Source of the DNA: Clostridia bacterium | GTDB taxonomy: Bacteria > Bacillota > Clostridia > UBA1212 > UBA1255 | Assembly (NCBI GenBank): GCA_017620915.1 | Contig: JAFZSK010000087.1 | Coordinates: 1-48,346, forward strand | Length of the DNA stretch: 48,346 nt | Direction of reading: 5' to 3' | In this document: positions 6,796 through 48,178 of the stretch, piece by piece | Position numbering within the stretch: the stretch's first letter is position 1 | Layout: each line of letters starts with the position of its first letter | Notes under the pieces: model-generated | Told to the model about the DNA's origin: nothing | What the model saw: only the letters and a program-made list of their open reading frames with translations | The model's database searches: none | Translations under genes and position numbers: made by a program

Positions 6796-7683
6796 TCAGT
6801 CGGTTTGAGTGCTGTTTTTGTCTCTGCGGGCAATAACTGAGATGACCGCTGCGGTGGCGGCAATGGCGGCCGCGGCCACGATGATTCCCGCCCAAAGACC
6901 GCCGCGGTTCTTGACCGTGTTGCCGGCGGAAGGTGCTTCGGTGAGCCGCTCGCGCGCAGGCTGCAGGTTGTCCGCGTCCGTTGCCTCCGGCTCGGGAGTC
7001 ACGGTATCGTCCCCGCCCGGAGTCGCGGTAGGCGTGGCGCGCGCCGGCGCATGGGGATCGCGGTCCCGCGAGACGGAGATCTTCGTGCCGGGCAGATAAT
7101 CTTTGTTCTCCAGGCCGTCTTCATAGAACGCCCAGGTGAACGTGTATTCTTCGGGGAGACATATGGATTCCCAGCTCCCGATATTGTTGGTGAAATGGTG
7201 GATATGGATCAGGTATGATCCGGCGGGCACGTAGCCGAAGCTGAGCGTGATGCCGTAATTGTCGACGTGATTCGAGATGACGCAGCGTTCCGCAACCGGC
7301 CCCGCGGCCAGTGTTTCATTGTACGAACCGCGCCACTCATATATATCCGCTGTGAAGCCGGCGTTGTCCTGCATCCCCCAGGTCGGCGCGGCGATAATGA
7401 TGAACTCGTCCAGTTTGTATCCGTCGGGCACTTCGAACCGGAATCCCACGCTGGAAAACGCGTTGAACATGCGCGGATTGCCCTGATTCGTGCCGTCGCA
7501 GAATAAGATCTCCATATGCTCCGGCTGCGTATCGGCGCGGACAATGCCCGTTCTTCCGGCCCCGGCGGTCAATACCGCGGCTCCGATGCTCAACAACGCG
7601 ACCGCAAGCAGCACGGTCAATATCCTGCGGCTTCCCGCGCGTTTCTGTTTGTTTTCTTTAACGGTTTCGAATCCGACTGCCAT
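6796..7683 (-). CDS. Membrane-anchored surface protein, paralogue 2
   Basis: 295 residues. A basic N-terminus and signal helix lead directly into the same beta domain as paralogue 1 (FNAFSSVGFRFEVPDG, APTWG, ADIYEWRGSY, YVPAGSYLI, NNIGSW). A shorter Pro/Thr/Ala stalk, a C-terminal helix and a polar tail follow. It is the first gene of the minus-strand unit: its promoter is TTGAAA-N17-TATAAT at 7745-7717, and AAAGGG lies 12 bases before the ATG. Only 43 bases separate it from paralogue 1. The shared domain looks like a carbohydrate- or protein-binding beta-sandwich, but that is inference from predicted fold; no family could be named. Duplication followed by loss or gain of the extra N-terminal domain explains the pair. 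Confidence 0.8.
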   Translation of the reverse strand: MAVGFETVKENKQKRAGSRRILTVLLAVALLSIGAAVLTAGAGRTGIVRADTQPEHMEILFCDGTNQGNPRMFNAFSSVGFRFEVPDGYKLDEFIIIAAPTWGMQDNAGFTADIYEWRGSYNETLAAGPVAERCVISNHVDNYGITLSFGYVPAGSYLIHIHHFTNNIGSWESICLPEEYTFTWAFYEDGLENKDYLPGTKISVSRDRDPHAPARATPTATPGGDDTVTPEPEATDADNLQPARERLTEAPSAGNTVKNRGGLWAGIIVAAAAIAATAAVISVIARRDKNSTQTD

Positions 7684-7716
7684 TTCCGGCCAGGCCCTTT
7701 CGCTGTTTATACAAGA

Positions 7717-7745
7717 ATTATACGCCGCGGTCCGCTGTTTTTCAA
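7717..7745 (-). promoter_or_regulatory. Promoter of the surface protein-mscS unit
   Basis: On the minus strand TTGAAA (7745-7740) and TATAAT (7722-7717) are separated by exactly 17 bases, about 30 bases before the ATG at 7683. It is divergent from the secG promoter, with the two -35 boxes only 14 bases apart, so competition for polymerase is possible. Confidence 0.75.
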
Positions 7746-7759
7746 CTTAAAAAAAGTTC

Positions 7760-7788
7760 TTGACATCCTGCGCGCAAGAGAGTAAAAT
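7760..7788 (+). promoter_or_regulatory. secG promoter
   Basis: TTGACA (7760-7765), 17-base spacer, TAAAAT (7783-7788). This is the closest match to the housekeeping consensus in the window and lies about 30 bases before the secG start. Confidence 0.8.
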
Positions 7789-7821
7789 TCCGCTGTTACA
7801 CTTTTGGAGGTGTTACAGACA

Positions 7822-8079
7822 ATGGTTGCTTTGAAGTTTATATTAGGTATAGTGTTCATGCTGGTCAGCGTTGTGATGGTGATCGTCATCCTCATGCAGC
7901 GCACGAAAGAAGACGGACTTTCCGGTGCCATCACCGGCCAGTCTTCCGAGTCTTTCTATTCCCGCACGGGCGGCGGACTCAGCAAGGACAAGTTTCTGCT
8001 TCAGCTCACGATAGTGCTGGGCGTATGCTTTGCGGTGGTTGCCATCATCCTCAGCTTCCTGATGGGCATGGGGACCTGA
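7822..8079 (+). CDS. secG: Preprotein translocase subunit SecG
   Basis: 85 residues, the normal SecG size, with two helices (about 3-22 and 57-80) around a Gly/Ser-rich loop containing SGAITGQSSESFYSRTGGG, as in SecG. SecG associates with SecYE in the membrane and helps the SecA motor, whose gene lies at 35,350. The start is the ATG at 7822, 11 bases after GGAGG (7806-7810). A TTG at 7804 is in frame but would place the ribosome-binding site inside the gene. It has its own consensus promoter. As in many Bacillota it is followed by rnr, here with a strong hairpin in between. Confidence 0.93.
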   Translation: MVALKFILGIVFMLVSVVMVIVILMQRTKEDGLSGAITGQSSESFYSRTGGGLSKDKFLLQLTIVLGVCFAVVAIILSFLMGMGT

Positions 8080-8122
8080 AAGCCGGCTGAAGTTAAGAAA
8101 ACACAGCGGACAAGCGATTCAA

Positions 8123-8156
8123 AGCCGTGGCGCGTTCCGAGCGTCACGGCTCTTTT
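8123..8156 (+). terminator. Hairpin between secG and rnr (terminator or attenuator)
   Basis: An 11-bp stem with one G-U pair (8123-8133 against 8141-8151, starting AGCCGTG and ending CACGGCT) has a 7-base loop and is followed by CTTTTC. It would terminate or reduce read-through from secG into rnr. The short T-run makes partial termination more likely than a full stop, and no second promoter is evident before rnr. Confidence 0.65.
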
Positions 8157-8176
8157 CGGTATAAAGGATGGGTAGT

Positions 8177-9931
8177 ATGGCAGCACGAAACGGCGGCAAA
8201 GGCCGCAGACCCGCCGCGCAGAAGCGTGCGGCGGTCAGAAATAAACGCGCGGGGAGCGCGGGCAATAAGTACGTATCCGGCCGGCGCAGCACCGGTCATG
8301 TCCGGCGCGAAGCCGGCAAGACTGCCTCCGGCGGCAGCGCGCGTTCCCGCGCCGCTTCGGGCCGGATCCGCAAAACCTATGTGCCGGTGCGCACCGGCCG
8401 CAATTCCTGGGACGACGAGCAGAACGCGCAGCTGGAGGCAATGATATTTGACCGGCGCGAGTTCCCGGATGCCGCAAAGGCGGAAGCGGCGAAAATGCCG
8501 GCGAGATTGACCGACGTGGCCGTACAGAGAGAACTCGGCCGCGGGCGGCGCGATCTGCGGGATAAGGTGATAGTTACGATCGACGGCGCGGATACGCGGG
8601 ACGTTGATGACGGCGTATCGCTGGAGCGGGACGGTGACGGCAACTGGGTGCTGGGCGTGCATATTGCCGACGTGGCCCACTATGTGAAGCCAGGCAGCGC
8701 GCTGGACGATGAAGCGTACCGCCGCGGCACCAGCGTGTATTTCCCGGATATGGTGCTGCCGATGCTGCCGAAAGAGTTGTCCAACGGGATCTGCAGTCTG
8801 AACGTGTGCGAGGAGCGGCTGGCGCTCAGCGTGGTCATGCAGCTGGATCCGGAAGGACGGCAGCTCGACTATGAGATATTCGAAAGCCTCATTAACGTTC
8901 GCTACAAGATCACGTATGAGGACTATGCGGCGCTGTACCGGGAGACGGACGAGCGGCGCGAAGCGCTCCGGACGGAGTATGCGCCGTACCTCGGCATGCT
9001 GGAAGACATGAAGCAGCTGGCGGCGGTGCTGCGGGCGCGGCGGCACGCGCGGGGGGCGCTGGATTTTGAATTGCCCGAGACGAAAGTGGAGATAGGCTCA
9101 AACGGCGAGCCTGTTGAGATACACCCGTACGAATTGACCTTCGCCAACAACGTGATCGAAGAGTTCATGCTGGCGGCCAACGAGACTGTTGCCACCCGGT
9201 TCGCGGCGCTGGGCGTGCCGTTCATATACCGCAACCATCCCGCCCCGGAAGCGGAGAAACTGGACGCGCTGGAGAATGCGGTGCGGCGCTTCGGCTTTAC
9301 GCTCCGGAACCGCGGCGGCACGCTGATCCAAGGCGCGATACCGGAGATGCTGGAACGCTGCAAGGGGCACCGGGCGGAGGCGGTGATCCACAGGCTCACG
9401 CTGACGTCGATGGGCAAGGCGGTATATTCGGATATCTGCCGCGGCCATTTCGGACTGGCGTCGGAGCATTACACCCATTTTACGTCGCCGATCCGCCGCT
9501 ATCCGGATCTGTATATACACCGGATCATCAAAGAGACGCTGTGGGGCGCGAAGCCGGAGACGCTCGCCGCGCGGTACACGGACGCGGAGGCAGCCGCCGC
9601 GGACTGCTCGGACGCAGAGCGGGAAGCGGAAAAAGCGGAGTTTTTCTACACGGACAAGCTGGTGGCGCGCTACATGGCGGGCTACCTGGGCGAGACGTTC
9701 GTGGGCACGGTCACGGGCGTGACCTCCTTCGGGCTGTTCATTATGCTGGACAACTCCGCGGAAGGCCTGCTGTTCTACGCGGACATGCCGGACAATATGA
9801 TATTTGACCCCCGCCGCCTTTCCGCAAAAGGGCGGTTCACCGGCCGTACCTACGGGCTGGGGGACAGACTGGAAGTGCGCATTGCCGCCGCGGACGAAAA
9901 AACCGGACGCATACAGTTCGTTTTCGCGTGA
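8177..9931 (+). CDS. rnr: RNase R/RNase II-family exoribonuclease lacking the N-terminal cold-shock domains
   Basis: 584 residues from the ATG at 8177, preferred because AAAGGA lies 8 bases upstream; the ATG at 8168 overlaps that site. The RNB catalytic domain is complete: TIDGADTRDVDDGVSL supplies the metal-binding aspartates, and HFTSPIRRYPDLYIHR is the late signature. A C-terminal S1 domain follows (FVGTVTGVTSFGLFIML). Known RNase R proteins usually have 700-800 residues with a winged helix and two cold-shock domains before RNB. Here these are replaced by about 75 residues of Arg/Lys/Gly/Ala-rich low-complexity sequence. The basic tail may bind RNA in their place. The enzyme should degrade RNA 3' to 5'; the ability to open structured RNA cannot be judged. 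Confidence 0.9.
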   Translation: MAARNGGKGRRPAAQKRAAVRNKRAGSAGNKYVSGRRSTGHVRREAGKTASGGSARSRAASGRIRKTYVPVRTGRNSWDDEQNAQLEAMIFDRREFPDAAKAEAAKMPARLTDVAVQRELGRGRRDLRDKVIVTIDGADTRDVDDGVSLERDGDGNWVLGVHIADVAHYVKPGSALDDEAYRRGTSVYFPDMVLPMLPKELSNGICSLNVCEERLALSVVMQLDPEGRQLDYEIFESLINVRYKITYEDYAALYRETDERREALRTEYAPYLGMLEDMKQLAAVLRARRHARGALDFELPETKVEIGSNGEPVEIHPYELTFANNVIEEFMLAANETVATRFAALGVPFIYRNHPAPEAEKLDALENAVRRFGFTLRNRGGTLIQGAIPEMLERCKGHRAEAVIHRLTLTSMGKAVYSDICRGHFGLASEHYTHFTSPIRRYPDLYIHRIIKETLWGAKPETLAARYTDAEAAAADCSDAEREAEKAEFFYTDKLVARYMAGYLGETFVGTVTGVTSFGLFIMLDNSAEGLLFYADMPDNMIFDPRRLSAKGRFTGRTYGLGDRLEVRIAAADEKTGRIQFVFA

Positions 9932-12167: not shown

Positions 12168-12169
12168 TT

Positions 12170-12232
12170 AAGTTGCAAGTTTTAAGTTTTAAGTTGCAAG
12201 TTTTAAGTTGTAAGTTTTAAGTGGCAAATTAG
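12170..12232 (+). repeat. Intergenic heptamer array 1 (AAGTTTT type)
   Basis: Nine consecutive 7-base units: AAGTTGC, AAGTTTT twice, AAGTTGC, AAGTTTT, AAGTTGT, AAGTTTT, AAGTGGC, AAATTAG. The array begins two bases after the preceding stop codon and ends at the GGGAGG ribosome-binding site of dgt. It is strongly AT-rich in a GC-rich region. Confidence 0.88.
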
Positions 12233-16330: not shown

Positions 16331-16993
16331 TCAGCATTCGGAGGCGGTCAATATTGCCCCCGCAGCGCGCAGTGCCGCCAGTTCGAGCGATGAGTATCGT
16401 CCCGCCGCCTTCGATACGGCGAGGGTCAATGTCTCTTTCGAAAGCCGCCCGTACGCCGTCCGGAGTTTCCGGCCCCGTCCTGCGGCCGCCGGACCGTTTA
16501 TAATACCCGAGAGAAAGATCGCCCGTATGGCGAGATTTCTCCCGGGTGTTTTGTTTTCGGCGGTATCGGCTGTCCGGTCCGCGGCGTCCGGCTCCGGGCT
16601 CAGCGTGCTTTCCCGCGCGCAGACCCGCAGCGCCACCGCGCCGGCGTACTGTTCAAACGCTTCATCCGGAAACGGAATTTCCGGCAGGGGGTCAGACCCC
16701 GTGTTGAATGCGGCCGCGGCGCACTCCGCGCACGCCTGCTCGAGCAGCGTGTCCGAGAGGCGAATGTTGACGAACTCGCGGTTTCCCGCCGCGGGGGAGC
16801 GCAGCAGATAATTGGTGTAGAGCGTCAATTGACCGCGGCTTTCCCGCAAAAGCAGATGCGGGGTGTCACTGTTGTCCGTTTCGTCTTTGCCTGACGGTCC
16901 CGCCAGCGCCGCGATGCGCGCCAGAATGAAGGCGTATACGCCGCGGTCAACGTGATACTTCGCGTATTCAGTTTCGGTAAGATAAAGTTCCAT
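16331..16993 (-). CDS. Protein of unknown function
   Basis: 220 residues, not recognised. It has no signal peptide or membrane helix. The N-terminal half begins MELYLTETEYAKYHVDRG and includes strand-like LLLRESRGQLTLYTNYLL; the middle is acidic and Ala-rich; the C-terminal 60 residues are basic and helical (GRGRKLRTAYGRLSKETLTLAVSKA), possibly nucleic-acid binding. It is the only minus-strand gene in a long plus-strand stretch and has a strong promoter (17,088-17,060), but no good ribosome-binding site directly before the ATG. Codon use is like that of its neighbours, which supports it as a real gene. It borders the palindrome-rich gap, which may or may not be relevant. Confidence 0.65.
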   Translation of the reverse strand: MELYLTETEYAKYHVDRGVYAFILARIAALAGPSGKDETDNSDTPHLLLRESRGQLTLYTNYLLRSPAAGNREFVNIRLSDTLLEQACAECAAAAFNTGSDPLPEIPFPDEAFEQYAGAVALRVCARESTLSPEPDAADRTADTAENKTPGRNLAIRAIFLSGIINGPAAAGRGRKLRTAYGRLSKETLTLAVSKAAGRYSSLELAALRAAGAILTASEC

Positions 16994-17145: not shown

Positions 17146-17186
17146 AAATAAACAATAACTCTTGTAAATTACGATTTTGTTTATTT
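17146..17186. repeat. Imperfect palindrome, arms AAATAAACA/TGTTTATTT
   Basis: Nine-base perfect arms (17146-17154 and 17178-17186) around a 23-base centre. It is the outermost member of the palindrome cluster, and its arm sequence is related to that of the next copy (TAAACA/TGTTTA). Confidence 0.6.
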
Positions 17187-17200
17187 CCCCGGGTTTTTAT

Positions 17201-17329
17201 GCTCATTTTCATGTTCAATGTCCTTCTCGACAAGTGTATTTGTAAACAAAAACGGTCTGCTTGAGAACTTCCTGTTTATTTCTGCATTATTATACTGCTC
17301 GAGAAGGCGCCCATGGACTGAAAATGAGC
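17201..17329. repeat. Large nested palindrome of 129 bp
   Basis: The left arm 17201-17229 (starting GCTCATTTTCA, ending CCTTCTCG) is largely the reverse complement of the right arm 17300-17329 (starting CGAGAAGG, ending TGAAAATGAGC). Eleven bases at one end and eight at the other are identical, with a diverged middle. Between them sits a 36-bp palindrome (17243-17278, arms TAAACA/TGTTTA, TTGAG at positions 19-23). The layout resembles a short non-autonomous element with terminal inverted repeats or a REP/BIME-like unit. Confidence 0.65.
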
Positions 17330-31680: not shown

Positions 31681-31729
31681 TTTGCATTTTGCCCCTTTGA
31701 ATTTGCCATTTGCCATTTGCAATTTGCCA
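31681..31729 (+). repeat. Intergenic heptamer array 3 (TTTGCCA type)
   Basis: Seven 7-base units: TTTGCAT, TTTGCCC, CTTTGAA, TTTGCCA twice, TTTGCAA, TTTGCCA. The sixth unit provides the TTGCAA -35 box of the next promoter. It starts 4 bases after the trkH stop. Confidence 0.88.
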
Positions 31730-31746
31730 TTAAAATGTGGTATACT
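31717..31746 (+). promoter_or_regulatory. Promoter overlapping heptamer array 3
   Basis: TTGCAA (31717-31722), 18-base spacer, TATACT (31741-31746) with extended context AAAATGTGG. The -35 hexamer is a unit of the repeat array. It should drive the membrane-protein genes from 31,813. Confidence 0.6.
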
Positions 31747-47579: not shown

Positions 47580-47608
47580 ATTATACGCCCGGAAGGGGTA
47601 AAGGGCAA
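47580..47608 (-). promoter_or_regulatory. Promoter of the phosphohexomutase-GH2 unit
   Basis: On the minus strand TTGCCC (47608-47603), 17-base spacer, TATAAT (47585-47580), about 40 bases before the ATG. The -35 box is a unit of the heptamer array. Confidence 0.65.
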
Positions 47609-47630
47609 GGGGGAAATGGCAAAGGGCAAG
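47596..47630 (-). repeat. Intergenic heptamer array 7 (TTTGCCA type)
   Basis: Read on the minus strand: CTTGCCC, TTTGCCA, TTTCCCC, CTTGCCC, TTTACCC. It is the same unit family as array 3 and again supplies a -35 box. Its outer end touches the left arm of the inverted repeat at 47,631. Confidence 0.8.
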
Positions 47631-47653
47631 CGGGCTCTACTCCCGATTTCGTA
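47631..47653. repeat. Left arm of 23-bp inverted repeat
   Basis: CGGGCTCTACTCCCG plus 8 further bases. It is the reverse complement of 48146-48168 with one mismatch; the outer 15 bases are perfect. The two arms bound a 538-bp block. No target-site duplication is apparent. Confidence 0.85.
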
Positions 47654-47702
47654 ACGCTGTCAGGCCGCGCGACCGGCAGCGCCCGGTCGTTTAACATGCG
47701 GA

Positions 47703-47740
47703 TTAGGACAAAAATGAATTTTTCATGTTCTCTTATACTA
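47703..47740. repeat. 38-bp element A
   Basis: Starts TTAGGACAAA and ends TTATACTA, with an internal ATGAA/TTCAT palindrome. It is followed by a 15-base linker ending GGGCGCCTTCT. Confidence 0.7.
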
Positions 47741-47787
47741 CGCTGGGCGCCTTCTAAGGCAATTTGCATACCTAATTGTATTGCCTC

Positions 47788-47825
47788 TTAGGATAAAACT
47801 ATAATTATATAATCATTTGATACCA
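47788..47825. repeat. 38-bp element B
   Basis: Starts TTAGGATAAA and ends TGATACCA; its centre contains ATTATATAAT. It begins exactly 85 bases after element A and is followed by a linker with the same GGGCGCCTTCT word. Confidence 0.72.
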
Positions 47826-47872
47826 GATCGGGCGCCTTCTCGCGTTTGCCAGCTCTATCGAATCTTGAGCGA

Positions 47873-47910
47873 TTAGGATAAAATAGCTTTGGATTTAATT
47901 TCATATACCA
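47873..47910. repeat. 38-bp element C
   Basis: Starts TTAGGATAAA and ends ATATACCA. It begins 85 bases after element B. Confidence 0.72.
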
Positions 47911-47925
47911 AGAGCGTTCAAAAAG

Positions 47926-47963
47926 ATAGGATTAATTTAATCTAGAACTATTTTTTTATACCA
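47926..47963. repeat. 38-bp element D
   Basis: Starts ATAGGATTAA and ends TTATACCA. It begins 53 bases after element C, which is 85 less the 32-base variable part. Confidence 0.65.
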
Positions 47964-48010
47964 TTATTTCAATTTCGCGTTTTTGAAAATGAGCGAGAGC
48001 AAAGAAAAAC

Positions 48011-48048
48011 TGGTATAAAACTAAGCGAGTTCAGATCGATTATACTAA
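48011..48048. repeat. 38-bp element E (opposite orientation)
   Basis: On the minus strand it starts TTAGTATAAT and ends TTATACCA. It begins 85 bases after element D; the 47-base spacer contains TGAAAATGAGCGAG, also found at 17,319. Confidence 0.65.
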
Positions 48049-48082
48049 ATATGGCTAAAAAAATGAAAAGGAAGCGGCCACA

Positions 48083-48178
48083 ATGAAAAAGGCGAGCGTA
48101 CAGGTAAAACGGATGAGCGCTGCCGGTCACGCAGACAAGGATTTCTACGAAAACGGGAGTAGAGCCCGAACCGGGTGA
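48083..48178 (+). CDS. 31-codon open frame truncated at the inverted repeat
   Basis: ATG at 48083 behind AAAAGGA encodes a basic peptide (MKKASVQVKRMSAAGHADKD and 11 more residues) and stops at TGA 48176. The right arm of the inverted repeat lies within its last codons. It may be the remaining 5' end of a gene cut by the repeat, or a chance frame. Not recognised. Confidence 0.25.
   Translation: MKKASVQVKRMSAAGHADKDFYENGSRARTG
48146..48168. repeat. Right arm of 23-bp inverted repeat
   Basis: Reverse complement of the arm at 47631-47653 with one mismatch, ending in CGGGAGTAGAGCCCG. Confidence 0.85.

Follow-up and report, generated by a model that had tools for sequence, protein, structure and literature searches.

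Helically phased arrays of putative protein-binding sites in MITE-like elements with ISL3-type ends in a Clostridia bacterium

In plant CACTA (En/Spm) elements the outer terminal inverted repeat (TIR) is conserved and the inner repeats vary from family to family, and TnpA binds the subterminal repeats of these elements to synapse their ends. The same arrangement was found in the elements described here, which differ from CACTA elements in transposase class, in the persistence of their arrays after loss of the TIRs, and in phasing to the DNA helix.

Among bacterial repeats, REP/BIME are GTAG- and CGTC-tagged palindromes (PMC3733652). The present arrays resemble them in consisting of 20-40 bp palindromes clustered between genes, in the CGTC start of two arm families, and in being entered by insertion sequences (compare PMC1525189). 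Unlike REP/BIME, which lie between tandem or convergent genes, the arrays are enriched between divergent genes and have fixed spacing, about ten unrelated arm sequences and ISL3-type ends; in the approximately ten arm sequences read, no unpaired GTAG or CGTC tag was present, and CGTC, where it occurred, was paired. Correia elements carry an IHF site, a MITE-borne protein site altering nearby promoters (PMC10969869), whereas four to five phased putative sites with many alternative specificities are found here. Bacterial ISL3-derived MITEs share the short, non-coding, multicopy and intergenic character of the elements, the TIRs in common with ISL3 and the 8-9 bp duplication signal, but the interior here is made of ordered, helically phased palindromes with exchangeable arms, and a literature search returned no description of such a MITE interior. 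Judged from its sequence and copies, the array is probably a mobile, helically phased platform of putative dimeric protein-binding sites within an ISL3-type MITE.

The array and its copies

The window, i.e. the whole 48,346-nucleotide stretch of DNA that was analysed, contains five 38-bp units within a longer non-coding element (Table 1). Each unit is composed of a left GGAYAAAA box, a variable centre of ca. 15 bp, and a right box TTTATACCA. The alpha form of the unit, GGAYAA-N21-TTATACCA, was retained across copies, even in those hardly alignable, with a left-to-right box distance of 27 nt in nearly all units of all alpha copies, and with half-sites that are imperfectly symmetric by a 1-nt offset. 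In 67 distinct alpha units, the conserved arm positions reached 1-2 bits per base and the centre mostly 0-0.6 bit, the low-information centre being the informative part of this contrast, as the arms were partly used to select the units.

The initial annotation had described five 38-bp units with shared ends, which was borne out at 47703-48047, at a spacing of 85/85/53/85, of which the first three values stood and the last became 84 when taken on the right-hand box (85/85/53/84). Inverted repeats had also been reported for the inserts between units. They are visible in the window copy, but are not a conserved feature, because the hairpin propensity of the linkers was weak over 15 copies (mean z -0.48, -0.10 and -1.28). 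That annotation covered the units only, and included neither the TIRs nor the second array of the window, which is located upstream of the minus-strand gene 16331-16993. Intergenic short tandem repeats of GGGCAAA-like or TTAAGTT-like 7-mers were additionally observed at 47591-47634, 31681-31731 and 12168-12227 of the window.

Table 1. Coordinates of the element, its units and motifs, and the second array in the window.
Feature	Position	Strand	Remark
Whole element, 536 bp, non-coding, putative ISL3-type MITE with alpha array	47632..48167	+	Homology to other copies begins and ends here; terminal inverted repeats
Left terminal inverted repeat GGGCTCTACTCCCGATTTCGTAA	47632..47654	+	Same sequence class as ISL3 element end in related genome
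Right terminal inverted repeat	48146..48167	-	
Unit 1 (GGACAA...TTATACTA)	47703..47740	+	
Unit 2	47788..47825	+	
Unit 3	47873..47910	+	
Unit 4	47926..47963	+	
Unit 5, left arm TGGTATAAAA in place of GGAYAAAA	48010..48047	+	
Box A, linker 1 (GGGCGCCTTCTA)	47745..47756	+	Kept across arm families
Box A, linker 2 (GGGCGCCTTCTC)	47830..47841	+	Kept across arm families
Box B (AAAATGAGCGAGAGC)	47986..48000	+	Kept across arm families
Second array, beta arms (ATAAACA.../...TTTGTTTA)	17147..17312	-	Box A at 17301-17312; unit coordinates approximate

In the genome of the window (G000), ca. 14 near-full alpha copies (69-83% identity) and 7 divergent ones were identified, together with dozens of sister arrays, the counts being obtained by pattern searches in a draft of 121 contigs with gene calls by a simple codon model. 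Alpha copies retaining all five units had identical spacings within 1 bp. A chance origin of the regularity, for which the initial annotation had allowed, was not upheld in view of these copies and their fixed spacing. The alpha element was found in none of 38 relatives and in none of a class-level set of 391 genomes; the contigs of species-level genomes returned seven single-motif chance matches, none with a second unit, and the alpha signature gave chance single matches only in viral contigs.

Arm exchange and helical phasing

Searches with box B (AAAATGAGCGAGAGC) brought up loci with the same linker motifs but other palindromes, and box A (GGGCGCCTTCTC, searched as GGGCKCCTTCTC) gave 61 matches in G000 against 3 for its reversed control. 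About ten arm families were found on one scaffold, with the linker motifs GGGCGCCTTCTC and AAAATGAGCGAGAGC common to them; arrays without box A or B would be missed, because the arrays were found by these shared motifs. The arm pairs in G000 include ATAAACAAAAA/TTTTTGTTTAT, GTCATAGCAAA/TTTGCTATGAC, GTCTAGCAAA/TTTGCTAGAC, GTTCAACGATTTT/AAAATCGTTGAAC and GTGGGACAAAAAT/ATTTTGTCCCAC, among others, and most of the arm families are perfect palindromes. G003, another species of the genus, had 47 motif matches and its own arms, of which the pair GTCTAACAAAA/TTTTGTTAGAC was in tandem at 84 bp, and additional arm types were present within the same terminal repeats in G001, G004 and G006. In G003, some arrays (L229, L233, L240) are followed by tandem repeats of ca. 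20 bp (ATGAGCGAGAATGCGGTTGA) derived from box B.

Unit spacings across the families were near 53, 63.5, 74, 84.5, 94.5, 116.5, 148 and 178 bp, and the centre-to-centre distances pooled over families formed clusters at 53/54, 63/64, 73-75, 82-86 and 93-95 bp, and also at 116/117, 137, 148 and 178 bp. Nine arm families were fitted, each spacing class of a family contributing a single value and the class means being picked by hand; the spacings followed n x 10.54 bp (intercept -0.1, residual SD 0.86), covering n = 5 to 9, 11, 13, 14 and 17 turns. The Rayleigh p-values, ~5e-9 for all classes and 8e-6 when the 8-turn class is omitted, are to be read as indicative, and the independent spacing values are fewer than the arrays because arrays of one family share their spacing by descent. 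Spacings of 78, 121 and 126 bp fitted poorly. The proximity of the window spacings to whole helical turns, pointed out in the initial annotation, accordingly holds across unrelated arm families.

Whole-turn spacing argues for selection on double-stranded DNA, and disfavours RNA or cruciforms, as neither has reason to keep it. That the array is transcribed into a structured RNA of consecutive hairpins is very improbable. The arms do co-vary as complementary pairs between families, which would fit RNA stems too, but the alpha units and linkers fold weakly, Rfam searches of the array gave no match, and the spacing is quantised by the B-DNA turn, so that the structural-RNA option of the initial annotation is not supported on these three grounds; at several loci a promoter-like sequence is located downstream of the array, which also speaks against it.

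Mobility, persistence and genomic position

The outer terminal repeats are common to arrays of many arm types. Several full elements with TIRs were found in five members of the genus, most arrays no longer have the full pair, and the elements, of 136-536 bp, are without coding capacity. The TIR GGCTCTACTCCC(A)TTTTCGT, the same as in the arrays, was located ca. 20-40 nt after the stop codon of an ISL3-family transposase in G001 (PF01610, E 6.8e-63), whose element ends in GGCTCTACTCCCATTTTCGT a few tens of bases past the stop, as seen at the end on the transposase C-terminal side, the N-terminal end being off the contig. Elements of other ISL3 transposases of the class likewise end in GGCTCT, and no PF01610 match was detected in G000. 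In G004 an IS256-like transposase lies close to a TIR; it was discarded as a candidate mover on account of its different ends.

In the flanks of 12 complete element pairs, which include two with one shared right flank and two at an orthologous locus, the mean identity of the flank duplication exceeded permutation at just two lengths, 8 and 9 bp, and the target-site duplication was clear in two elements (L179, L280). This signal agrees with the 8 bp target duplication documented for the ISL3-type Tn7546 (PMC9782665). The core of the ackA promoter is conserved between G000 and G002, and the array is present in G000 only. At an insertion that is orthologous in G004 (L266) and G001 (L269), one species has one unit and the other two, which indicates that unit number changes in place. 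By these sequence features the elements have the character of MITEs that belong to an ISL3-type insertion sequence.

Two apparent multicopy insertion sequences cut beta and delta arrays (L163, L168, L184 and L157, L170, L162), entering arm or linker, and contigs break there; one of the two matches the ends of a G004 element (L294) with a 423-aa transposase. At L052 (C55, about 7610-9600), a 281-aa gene has a divergent alpha array on either side, the two being inverted relative to each other. It was tested as a possible autonomous element, without a Pfam match.

Old copies show how the arrays decay. In six divergent alpha copies (L029, L031, L032, both L033 arrays and L034), the centres were 25-40% identical to the consensus, i.e. 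at random level, and no TIR was detectable above random level, yet the right arms were 82-96% identical and the spacing was 85/85/53/84 within +-1 bp. In 11 copies (three of the 14 aligned being left out), the gaps within the alpha core were nearly all of 1 bp, with one 3-bp gap and one exact loss of an 85-bp unit as exceptions, and the element flanks had gaps of many lengths, three times commoner than in the core. Since arrays are kept after TIR loss, selection would act on the array itself, and the best reading is that the array is selected independently of transposition.

These copies bear on two other explanations. The main rival regards the units as enhancer-like accessory transposition sites, at which the transposase or a helper synapses the element ends and the arms differ by subfamily helper. 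We consider this unlikely, even though the elements are mobile and arrays with a variety of arms are all bounded by a single TIR type: it leaves the TIR-less arrays unexplained, with arms and spacing outlasting the TIRs in old copies, no ISL3 transposase is detectable in G000, and the literature search gave no bacterial precedent. A plain functionless MITE, in which the geometry of an ancestral tandem duplication has not yet eroded, would account for mobile, multicopy and lineage-specific elements, but is hardly credible when old copies with fully eroded centres and TIRs have intact arms and spacing, and when the differing spacings of the families all fall on whole turns.

The arrays lie near genes: among 43 arrays with both neighbours, 27 were in divergent, 15 in tandem and one in convergent regions, against 17% divergent by length in a small non-array control of 63 intergenic regions drawn around the arrays. 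The enrichment could reflect insertion preference or tolerance instead of function. A fixed orientation to the downstream gene was apparent by eye and failed a systematic check, with no bias in the tandem regions (8 against 7). Neighbouring genes, named by reading the sequences, were unrelated in function (citrate synthase, isoleucyl-tRNA synthetase, acetate kinase, ruvA and rpsL), and such lack of common function would be odd for a regulon.

Negative supercoils build up between divergent genes, and the palindromes may instead be DNA structure, either cruciforms or gyrase/topoisomerase sites, that absorbs supercoiling between divergent promoters or triggers its relaxation, in the manner of BIMEs. 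The strong enrichment in this position and the perfect palindromes of most arm families are in line with such a role. It is nevertheless improbable, as each family conserves its own arm sequence, the palindromes of the alpha units are imperfect and their asymmetry is conserved, and a cruciform does not depend on helical phasing.

A putative platform for DNA-binding proteins

If the array is a platform of protein-binding sites, the block would represent five sites at which a dimeric protein binds DNA sequence-specifically, and in which each 38-bp unit would consist of two half-sites (the arms) around a centre of fixed length and free sequence. Whole-turn spacing would place the bound dimers on the same face of the DNA, able to touch or loop, and boxes A and B may be a shared second component. 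As the arms differ, the arrays probably address different proteins. A MITE-like element with ISL3-family ends would have spread the platform into intergenic regions, mainly between divergent promoters. Both the multi-site protein-binding geometry and the modular mobile element suggested in the initial annotation gained support, and they apply jointly; we infer protein binding, a dimeric state, interaction between bound units, and an action of the retained function on nearby promoters or on local DNA structure.

A wider reading is tentative and goes further than we would expect to be borne out. According to it, the arrays are interchangeable, helically phased operator arrays on mobile modules, read by diversified DNA-binding proteins, and ordered protein filaments, assembled by the modules between divergent promoters, would provide insulation, silencing or local organisation of the chromosome: an addressable architectural element without a described bacterial counterpart.

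The arrays constitute a natural experiment in DNA geometry, with dozens of copies in one genome in which the sequence is free and the helical phase fixed, and with some ten exchanges of the half-site sequence on a common scaffold. They also offer a clean test of whether the interior of a MITE can be selected independently of mobility. If a protein family reads the arrays, its matched site specificities would be at hand as a ready set, and it would be shown that small mobile elements can spread ordered nucleoprotein platforms between promoters.
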